NCBI GenBank assembly: GCA_021797895.1
Contig: JAJZYW010000002.1
Coordinates: 36,343 to 100,342, forward strand
Direction of reading: 5' to 3'
DNA: 64,000 bases
From: Microcaldota archaeon
Lineage (GTDB): Archaea; Micrarchaeota; Micrarchaeia; Micrarchaeales; Micrarchaeaceae
The position numbers and the translations under genes were made by a program. Shown here in pieces: positions 13,871 through 16,757 of this stretch (position 1 is its first letter; every line of letters starts with the position of its first letter). The notes beneath the pieces are model-generated. The model was given only the letters and a program-made list of their open reading frames with translations. It was not told the origin of the DNA and searched no databases.

Positions 13871-13975
13871 ACCGCGCTGCCATAAGAAAGGGCAGACCGT
13901 GGTTCGCAGTAGAGCGCAGAAATGCTTAAAAACTCATGCTGTGATGCGTATTCAGTGAATTAATAGGTGAAAAAT

Positions 13976-14140
13976 ATGGATCCAGGACGCGGAAGCAGTG
14001 GTTTGGTTGGCGAGGGTAAGGATGACCCGGGACGCGGAAACAGTGGCTTTGTTGGAAAGGGCAAAGATGATCCTGAGCGTGGAAGCACAGGTTTTGTTGG
14101 TGAAGGCAAGGATGACCCAGGACGCGGAGACACAGGCTGA
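13976..14140 (+). CDS. 54-aa glycine-rich protein built of 15-aa repeats (not in the supplied ORF track)
   Basis: Translation M-[DPGRGSSGLVGEGKD][DPGRGNSGFVGKGKD][DPERGSTGFVGEGKD]DPGRGDTG*; SD-like aggtga and TATA-like cttaaaaa upstream. Confidence 0.65.
   Translation: MDPGRGSSGLVGEGKDDPGRGNSGFVGKGKDDPERGSTGFVGEGKDDPGRGDTG
13979..14137 (+). repeat. 45-bp coding tandem repeat, 3 full units + 24-bp partial
   Basis: Units at 13979-14023, 14024-14068, 14069-14113, partial 14114-14137. Confidence 0.9.
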
Positions 14141-14300
14141 ACAGATTTTTCTTGTTGGCTTTTCCTCATTTTGTTAGTGAATAGTTTATCTTTTGAAATG
14201 CGCTTGTCGTATGCGGCTTTCTCCTGTTATGCTGCGAAGTATGCCATTTATGCAAGAACTGCATGATGGCAATTATGCGGTGGATGCAGATACACCGCAA

Positions 14301-14445
14301 AGCGCAGAAATGCTTAAAAACCCATGCTGTGATTGAATCTCAGTAAATTAATAGGTGAAAAATATGGATCCAGGACACGGAAGTACAGGCTGAACATGCT
14401 TTTCTTGTTAGCTTTTACTCATTTTTTTAGTGAATAGTTTATCTT
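14301..14445 (+). repeat. Degenerate tandem copy of the 13913-14193 segment, internal repeats missing
   Basis: agcgcagaaatgcttaaaaa[c/t]ccatgctgtgat...aattaataggtgaaaaatatggatccagga shared upstream; matching 3' flank ending tagtgaatagtttatctt. Confidence 0.85.
14364..14393 (+). CDS. 9-codon micro-ORF MDPGHGSTG*, contracted paralogue of the 54-aa repeat protein
   Basis: Same SD and start context as 13976; offset 388 nt at the ATG and 253 nt at the stop, difference 135 = 3x45 nt. Confidence 0.35.
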   Translation: MDPGHGSTG

Positions 14446-15828
14446 CGGATATGCACTCTTTTCTCCGTACTCAATCAGTATTCTGTTCTGGTTGGAGTAA
14501 TAGTTGTCGAATCTCCTGATTCCTATGCTGCCAGCTACGATATCAGACACTATTGATATGCGTACCGCATCGCTTCCTGTGGATTCTTCTATGTCGTGCG
14601 ACAGTCTGCTCGAATCGCCATCGTTGAAGATAGGCGAGATGTACAGGCCGCCCTCTATGTCTGTTATGTCGCCTACGAAAGCATGCTTGTTTACTATGTT
14701 GCTTTCCCCTATTATGTTGCGTAGTATGCTCTTGATTCTTCCAGACCAATCGTTCTGGTTGTGCTTTGCGACATGGAATATCGCTTCATATTTCATCTGC
14801 AGCCCTGCAATGTTTATTGTCGGCCTTTTTATTATGCCCTGCTCAAGAAGCCGAAGGTAGGTGTACCTTGATGCTCCGCCTTCCAGCCCCAAGCCTGAAT
14901 CCATCTCTGCAAAGCTGATTGAGGAATTCTGGTTCATCAGGCTCAGGACGTCGTACTCTCTTTTCCATATGGTTCCAGCTGTCTTTTTCGGCGAATCCTT
15001 TGTACGCCTGTATACTTTGGATTGCAGCATCTTCTCGAAGAATTCCTGCCTTAGTGGCACGTAGCCGTACGTATTGTAGAAAAGTATCACCTTCCACTCC
15101 ATGCTGTAGCCTGGAAGTATGCTTGAGCGCAGGTTGTACAGCATCTCCTTTGCCCTGTCTATGCTGTTCTCAACAAGGACGTACATGAAGAGGTCGTAGT
15201 CCCCCTTTGTTAGAGCTGCGAACTGGACCATCGGCTCGGATTCTACAGCTGCCTTTATCTCCTCAAATTGGGGCTTCTTATCAAGGAACTTCGCGTTCAC
15301 TATATAGTATACGTATCCAAGCTTCTCTACGTTTATCTCAAGTGTATATTTTATACCGAGCTTCTTTTCTAGGGCGAGTATGCTGTACCGCGTCCTTGGC
15401 TGCGACCAGCCCAGCATCTTGCCAAGATACTGCTGCGATATCCTCGAATTCATGCTGAGAGCCTGCAGTATAAACAAATCACGCTCGTCAAGCTTGGGCT
15501 GGATGATTTGAGCCTCAGAATCGTTTCTCACGGATCCCTCTTGCTGCAGCCCTGCCTGATCCGCATACCTCGCTTTGTCAACACGCTGCCTTCTTGCCTG
15601 GTATCTGTGCCTTGCAGGTATGAAGAGGCCGCTCTGATTTATCCTGCCAAGGTACCTGCTTTTCCTGACGCTGCTCTCAGTATCTGCATCTCTTATTGCT
15701 AAACGTTCGTATACGCAATAGCTCCCGTTTATAAGCCTTATCTCGATATTTGGGCTGTATTCCCTCTGCAAAGCCTCGAACGCAGCCCTTATCGGCTCCG
15801 GCGCTGAGTCTATCACCCTTGTCATCAT
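14419..15828 (-). CDS. Large Lrp/AsnC-like winged-helix regulator with two HTH-like segments
   Basis: 'KLDERDLFILQALSMNSRISQQYLGKMLGWSQPRTRYSILALEKKLGIKYTLEIN' Lrp-like HTH followed by RAM-like segment; second HTH-like 'KREYDVLSLMNQNSSISFAEMDSGLGLEGGASRYTYLRLLEQGIIK'. Confidence 0.6.
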   Translation of the reverse strand: MMTRVIDSAPEPIRAAFEALQREYSPNIEIRLINGSYCVYERLAIRDADTESSVRKSRYLGRINQSGLFIPARHRYQARRQRVDKARYADQAGLQQEGSVRNDSEAQIIQPKLDERDLFILQALSMNSRISQQYLGKMLGWSQPRTRYSILALEKKLGIKYTLEINVEKLGYVYYIVNAKFLDKKPQFEEIKAAVESEPMVQFAALTKGDYDLFMYVLVENSIDRAKEMLYNLRSSILPGYSMEWKVILFYNTYGYVPLRQEFFEKMLQSKVYRRTKDSPKKTAGTIWKREYDVLSLMNQNSSISFAEMDSGLGLEGGASRYTYLRLLEQGIIKRPTINIAGLQMKYEAIFHVAKHNQNDWSGRIKSILRNIIGESNIVNKHAFVGDITDIEGGLYISPIFNDGDSSRLSHDIEESTGSDAVRISIVSDIVAGSIGIRRFDNYYSNQNRILIEYGEKSAYPKINYSLKK

Positions 15829-16162: not shown

Positions 16163-16420
16163 ATGCACGTATGGGAAATAAAGTTTGTGCTGTCCCTTCC
16201 CGTTTTGGGAAAGTGGGCAAGGAAGAAGCGCGACAAGTGGGTTTTTGAGGACGACCCGAACAATAAGCGCCCTGTTGTAGGGATTGCGCTCAGCAAGATT
16301 GCATTCATGTACGTGTGGGGCGACATGCCGATAAAGGATCAGCTCAGCGAGTACGACTTCAAGAGGTTCCTTGAATACAACAACATAACTGAGTATGATC
16401 TTCCTGAGAAGTACAGGTAA
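16163..16420 (+). CDS. Hypothetical protein, 85 aa
   Basis: ATG preceded by ggtggt; 'KKRDKWVFEDDPNNKRPVVGIALSKIAFMYVWGD'. Confidence 0.55.
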   Translation: MHVWEIKFVLSLPVLGKWARKKRDKWVFEDDPNNKRPVVGIALSKIAFMYVWGDMPIKDQLSEYDFKRFLEYNNITEYDLPEKYR

Positions 16421-16439
16421 TATTAAATGGGTGGGGAGC

Positions 16440-16757
16440 ATGGGCAGTACTAAAAACACCAGAAGCAACGGAAACCTTGTCGAGACGACAAGGTCTGGGA
16501 AGAGGTTCTACAGGCTCTATTTTATTAAGCCCCCAATAAAGGCTGAAATGGAAGACCTCGGCGACGAGCTGATAAGGATGAACGAGGTAGAGGAGGTTTT
16601 CCTTACAGATGGCGACTATGGCTATGTCGTCAAGGCGCGCTTTGACGAGGAGAAGGAGCCCTCAAACGTGGAGCGCTTCCTGCAGAAGCGCCTTGGGAAC
16701 CGCTACGGCAAGGTTACTGCTTTTGACAAGTACGGTCCGGTGCGCAGGATGCAGTAA
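16440..16757 (+). CDS. Hypothetical protein, about 105 aa
   Basis: ATG preceded by ggtgggg; compact alpha/beta-looking sequence. Confidence 0.6.
   Translation: MGSTKNTRSNGNLVETTRSGKRFYRLYFIKPPIKAEMEDLGDELIRMNEVEEVFLTDGDYGYVVKARFDEEKEPSNVERFLQKRLGNRYGKVTAFDKYGPVRRMQ

Follow-up and report, generated by a model that had tools for sequence, protein, structure and literature searches.

Very small peptide genes paired with convergent tandem-Lrp regulators in an order of Micrarchaeota

The microcin C precursor gene mccA has seven codons, and the yeast alpha-factor type is a multi-core peptide precursor. In the RRNPP systems of Firmicutes (Rgg/SHP, ComR/ComS and PlcR/PapR), a short peptide gene lies beside the gene of a cytoplasmic regulator with a TPR-fold peptide receptor, and many diversified pairs occur per genome. 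These systems re-import their peptides (PMC4873490). The Lrp/AsnC feast/famine regulators, among them E. coli Lrp and AsnC and P. furiosus LrpA, are built from winged helix-turn-helix (wHTH) and RAM folds, the latter also found as stand-alone RAM proteins. RAM domains are the small-effector binding sites of Lrp proteins, for which amino acids and small metabolites are the effectors known (PMC2995911).

Here we describe a family of tiny genes, distributed across an order of DPANN archaea, that have a promoter, a Shine-Dalgarno sequence (SD), signs of coding selection and a fixed partner, a convergent regulator gene. The arrangement resembles the RRNPP systems in the short peptide gene beside a cytoplasmic regulator gene and in the many diversified pairs per genome. 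It differs from them in the tandem Lrp/AsnC fold of the regulator, in peptide genes of 5–13 codons that have no pro-region, and in being archaeal. Additionally, an OppA-type peptide-binding protein (PF00496) was found in 0/60 genomes, compared with 11/14 control genomes. The regulators share the wHTH and RAM folds of the Lrp/AsnC proteins; unlike these single HTH+RAM proteins, they carry two wHTH+RAM copies and an extra N-terminal beta domain per chain, and are paired with a tiny peptide gene. The tiny genes are comparable to mccA in size and as SD-led minimal genes, but they show no conserved C-terminal Asn and no recurrent adjacent modification enzyme, and have a regulator as partner instead. 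We found no prior description of the family in the open-licence literature, and it appears to have gone unnoticed in Micrarchaeota; genes of 5–13 codons are normally missed because they fall below the usual gene-finding length limits.

The window, a 64,000-nt stretch of Micrarchaeota DNA, contains a 54-aa ORF at 13976–14140 (+) that reads M-DPGRGSSGLVGEGKD-DPGRGNSGFVGKGKD-DPERGSTGFVGEGKD-DPGRGDTG. It comprises four 8-aa cores with the pattern DPGRGxSG and three 7-aa linkers, arranged as unit 1 (DPGRGSSG-LVGEGKD, 13979–14023), unit 2 (DPGRGNSG-FVGKGKD, 14024–14068), unit 3 (DPERGSTG-FVGEGKD, 14069–14113) and a terminal core (DPGRGDTG, 14114–14137), all on the + strand. Tandem Repeats Finder reported no other array in the window; this one has a period of 45, 3.3 copies and a score of 175. 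The ORF is preceded by a TATA-like box, CTTAAAAAC (13925–13933, +), and the SD AGGTGA (13965–13970, +), the latter conserved in the congener TL1-2.bin19. The repeat ORF, TATA-like box and SD claimed by an earlier sequence-only reading are confirmed. That reading had also held that third-position changes dominate between units. Indeed, when five different full units taken from window and congener were compared, the variable columns numbered 13/3/2 at codon positions 3/2/1 (n = 18, P ~9e-6), and the bias persisted for the window units alone (P ~1e-4), between which pS was 0.57–0.82 and pN 0.09–0.13. Orthologues with stops or frame-breaking lengths, the evidence named as counting against the gene, were looked for; the frame is intact in TL1-2.bin19 at 54 aa, and a second copy in the window is shorter by exactly 135 nt, or three units. 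Judged from its sequence, the ORF is a real, unannotated protein-coding gene under protein-level selection, with its own archaeal promoter and SD.

Several other accounts of the repeat were rejected. An ORF on the opposite strand (13960–14169, −) was discarded because the variation falls on third positions of the + frame, and a chance repeat because of the array call and the codon-position bias. A mobile element was dismissed, as the genome itself holds no further copies and phage records gave no match. Rfam matches in the window were tRNAs only and Pfam gave no family for the ORF, which removed a known RNA family and a known protein family; weak protein matches in other relatives (E 0.006–0.16) were taken as chance.

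The same reading described the ORF, promoter and SD correctly and overlooked the second copy of the whole gene, which is repeat-free and lies 388 bp downstream (14301–14457). The repetition runs from the promoter and leader through the start and stop into the 3′ flank: a TATA-like box (14313–14321, +), the near-palindromic element CTGTGATTGAATCTCAG (14327–14343, +), the SD AGGTGA (14353–14358, +) and a 9-aa ORF, MDPGHGSTG (14364–14393, +), probably the ancestral form. Positions 13913–13995 and 14301–14383 are 89% identical, and 14114–14204 and 14367–14457 are 84% identical (91 nt). The duplicated segment takes in the final codons of the convergent gene at 14419–15828; since a fragment of the 3′ end of that gene recurs at 14166–14204 (−; 84% over 91 nt), a segment comprising the tiny gene and the regulator tail was tandemly duplicated. 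The spacer 14205–14300 is weakly similar to an inner part of the regulator gene (~14708–14740) and may be what decay has left of a more extensive duplication.

In TL1-2.bin19 (~95% DNA identity), both genes are present, encoding 54 aa and MDPGRGSTG (the reading of the 9-aa form in genome G002). An apparent swap of 3′ ends between the two copies suggests that they have recombined. The synonymous differences in unit 3 between the window and this congener are saturated (pS 0.82, pN 0.13) amid adjoining sequence that is 97–99% identical; this piece was therefore replaced by a divergent copy encoding nearly the same peptide. A more distant third congener, G001, has only MDPGRGDSG at the same place, with a TATA box (TATAAA) and GGTGA. 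Because the second copy and G001 are single-core, we read the 54-aa protein as an in-frame expansion of a 9-codon gene. The simplest history would be that this gene was duplicated and that one copy then expanded to core-linker-core-linker-core-linker-core. A contig assigned to FK_Sedi_B_Bin.344 (JAMCYP010000005.1) matched the window at 100% identity in a 5-kb comparison; taxonomy places that genome in another family of the order, and the contig looks mis-binned.

The convergent gene (14419–15828, −) encodes a 469-aa protein in which Pfam detected an AsnC-type HTH and, weakly, a RAM domain. In its AlphaFold2 model (pLDDT 90.6, pTM 0.76), a beta domain at the N terminus is joined by two winged-HTH+RAM modules. 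Its best Foldseek matches were NirDL, a sirohaem decarboxylase with two Lrp-fold modules, and numerous Lrp/AsnC regulators of the single type. The NirDL/AhbAB proteins, the best matches spanning two Lrp-like modules, are enzymes at 14–15% identity, whereas 65/69 homologues of the regulator gave an HTH_AsnC match, which makes DNA binding its likely role. Pfam reported a RAM domain in 26/69 regulators, and Foldseek matched the fold to Lrp structures. The regulator family is restricted to the window's order, where 138 genomes of two families carry it, usually as several paralogues per genome; beyond these, two genomes gave weaker matches.

The 3′ flanks of ~70–90 regulator homologues, mostly from incomplete metagenome-assembled genomes, contain a recurrent SD-led tiny ORF that is convergent with the regulator and ends beside its stop. 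Examples of the encoded peptides are MGGSAGQT, MNGGPNGGG, MVGNGGE, MEGGDGQS, MDPGKSGD, MGGGGGQ, MNGSY, MNASY and MSDCY. Many of the genes have a TATA box ~35–40 nt before the ATG, and the SD-to-ATG spacing is similar throughout. When we required an ATG, 4–14 aa, an SD match of at least 4 nt and a position 10–130 nt from the regulator stop, a convergent ORF was present at 43/68 regulators (63%), compared with 8% of the other ORF ends in 20 control regions (29/361) and 10.7% of shuffled flanks; about one third of the regulators have no tiny ORF by this definition. Adding at least two Gly gave 33/68 (49%) vs 1/361 (0.3%) and 0.8% of shuffles, and adding both TATA and at least two Gly gave 21/68 vs 0/361 and ~0%. 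The unconditioned 63% vs 8% is the safer figure, because the Gly criterion was picked after examples had been seen.

Independently, the pattern TATA-SD-ATG-NNN-GGN-GGN was searched over 303 genomes of the phylum. It returned 30 tiny ORFs, confined to the two families in which the regulator is full-length, and 25 of them lie beside a regulator (22 read and confirmed, three by coordinates); one of the other five is near a contig end. All seven matches in other families of the phylum were ordinary genes of at least 80 codons, and the reversed pattern had no match in the 303 genomes. Collectively, the tiny gene and the regulator are very probably a genuine paired module. The 54-aa glycine-rich repeat protein of the sequence-only reading holds as a coding gene, but what is conserved is a gene of nine codons with a convergent regulator as its partner; the repeat form is an unusual derivative and not itself the entity of interest.

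The tiny genes vary in number and form. Every peptide found for one regulator clade has 5–6 residues and ends in Tyr (loci L014, L017, L018, L030, L038, L054, L065 and L077). Locus L081 carries six tiny Gly/Ser ORFs in tandem behind one TATA, each with a separate start and stop (MGGAGGGG, MGGSGGGS, MSGSGGGG, MGGSGGGG, MGGAGGGS and MSGSGGGS), an array with the appearance of a polycistron of octapeptides. Beside a second regulator paralogue in the window's own genome (L124, contig C1), a tandem pair of tiny genes encodes MMGGSGEKGGH and MMGGAGEKGGQ, and the orthologue in G001 carries MVSGAGEKGGQ. Multi-core ORFs occur at L093, in another genus (MNIMT-MGNGSGGNAVKPVVRM-MGNGSGGNAVKPVVRM-MPNN, upstream of a single MNGDGGGA), and at L062 (MKGGTNGGKIIGGPHSGIVGGPHGG, upstream of MKGGPNGGR). 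As far as the genes tell, the multi-core forms arose independently in these two genomes. In 3/3 cases, including the window, it is the regulator-distal copy that has expanded.

The promoters show a second level of similarity, within genera. Between TATA and SD, copy 1 carries a variant, CTGTGATGCGTATTCAG (13939–13955, +), of a genus-specific element, and the same variant recurs in G001 and G002 at tiny genes that accompany other regulators. In the window's genus, CTGTGATTGAATCTCAG occupies this place, and every 0-mismatch copy in three genomes was at a tiny-gene promoter; similarly, CATTCCATTTTGGAATG lies at tiny-gene promoters in genus g11, with 0–1 mismatches. A universal operator palindrome was rejected, as such elements were seen in these two genera and are not general (p ≤ 0.05 in 8/54). 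Within one genome, regulators of different lineages have a tiny-gene promoter in common, which would not be expected if each regulator controlled one promoter of its own. One genome, G030 (L072, L087, L187, L190 and L193), has at least six tiny genes with near-identical promoters and differing peptides (MEGGDTD, MNGGEDN, MEGGDGQE, MEGGDGQS, MEGGTDAS and MNGDSG).

Across nine groups of related tiny ORFs, 68, 51 and 125 substitutions fell on the first, second and third codon positions, respectively. Copies aligned by their flanks differ in length by multiples of three; alignment of the groups as ORFs makes this length test partly circular, but not the position bias. We then compared peptides, promoters and regulators at 54 loci. 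Across genera, peptide similarity tracked the regulator tree (P = 0.001, with a modest r of −0.19), and promoter similarity did not follow regulator distance (P = 0.21). Instead, promoter similarity tracked genus, even for very distant regulators (0.59 vs 0.43, P = 0.0005). The peptide can be separated from the promoter, because distant regulators within a genus have near-identical promoters and different peptides, as for MNGGPNGGG and MDPGKSGD (96% promoter identity). Among the indirect evidence, these patterns are the best sign that the peptide matters to its regulator, although the correlation may owe something to linked genes being inherited together. Regulator positions specific to the Tyr-peptide clade showed no concentration in the RAM domains.

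We propose, with a probability of about one half, that each tiny peptide is a specific effector of the neighbouring regulator. The module would consist of a 5–13-codon gene with its own TATA and SD, tail-to-tail with a tandem-Lrp transcription regulator, and its product (here MDPGxGxxG) would be a short peptide, hydrophilic and in most cases rich in Gly. Since RAM domains hold small effectors in Lrp proteins, a peptide from the adjacent gene is the most economical candidate. It would bind the RAM modules and alter DNA binding or oligomerisation, as amino acids do for Lrp proteins, so that the module would report expression of the tiny gene. A common promoter element per species would switch the tiny genes together, each peptide addressing its own regulator. 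The 54-aa form could serve as a multi-core precursor, with cleavage at its linkers, or as a multivalent effector. As a putative precursor it shares with the alpha-factor type the repeated cores, the conserved linkers and a core also encoded singly elsewhere, but has no signal sequence. The analysis establishes the genes, their pairing, selection on coding, the inheritance of peptide type along with regulator lineage, and the expansion, whereas we infer the peptide–regulator binding, the regulatory outcome and the processing of the 54-aa form.

Because OppA-type proteins were found in none of the 60 genomes, RRNPP-style re-import by that route is unlikely; classical export and re-import signalling is not supported, and gene content would leave an intracellular effector or uptake by another route. 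That the peptides serve archaeal cell–cell communication is less likely than not; in such a scheme, ultra-short leaderless peptides in species-wide sets would each have their own tandem-Lrp receptor and be used within or between tiny symbiotic Micrarchaeota, possibly with their hosts too, and multi-core precursors would evolve repeatedly. If the peptides are effectors, the modules would represent genetically encoded peptide signalling in archaea and a new ligand class for the Lrp fold, and would give a testable handle on gene regulation in Micrarchaeota and perhaps on host interaction. Even if their function differs, very small genes here act as a diversified gene family.

Other functions for the module were weighed against the same observations. 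The many diversified paralogues at scattered sites in each genome, the duplicated tiny genes and their common promoter element would also suit an addiction or toxin-type module, in which harm from the tiny peptide, or from its translation, would be averted by the convergent regulator through repression or neutralisation. We consider this unlikely: the regulator resembles a ligand-binding Lrp protein rather than a known antitoxin and has no match in phage records, the peptides are hydrophilic and Gly-rich without membrane-active character, and arrays of six tiny genes exist. The coding pattern bears on the proposal that the functional entity is a small regulatory RNA, either a GGA-rich conserved transcript or a 3′ overlap with the regulator mRNA, and that the ORF is incidental. 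Being convergent, the transcripts would run into the 3′ end of the regulator, and GGA is, by eye, the commonest Gly codon. Yet changes are third-position-biased and length changes in frame, GGA, GGC and GGT are freely interchanged, the Tyr-ending group has no GGA runs, and SD and ATG are retained at similar spacing, which makes this reading distinctly unlikely.

A secreted or modified peptide of the bacteriocin or RiPP type, as with mccA, would reduce the regulator to a local controller. The products are very short and hydrophilic, and duplicated or multi-core genes are typical of peptide natural products, but the gene neighbourhoods make such a role improbable. Among the neighbours of the regulators (n = 63), no recurrent modifying enzyme or exporter was seen beside the tiny genes; the 3′ neighbours are diverse, the most frequent being a methyltransferase (7/63), and the 5′ neighbours mostly have no family match, apart from RAM proteins (8/63). 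An MccB-type adenylyltransferase is absent from the best 25 neighbour families listed. The view of the sequence-only reading, that the 54-aa ORF is a Gly-rich structural repeat protein, draws on its being intact in two congeners under strong protein-level constraint. It is very unlikely, given that the same promoter drives a linker-free 9-aa version next door and in the third congener, and that comparable tiny genes occupy the same place across the whole order.

To return to the proposed effector module, the regulator in the window has one of these RAM neighbours. A small stand-alone RAM-like protein (16395–16757, +; AsnC_trans_reg, 3e-5) is encoded upstream of the regulator gene and divergent from it, and may be a partner or third component of the module.
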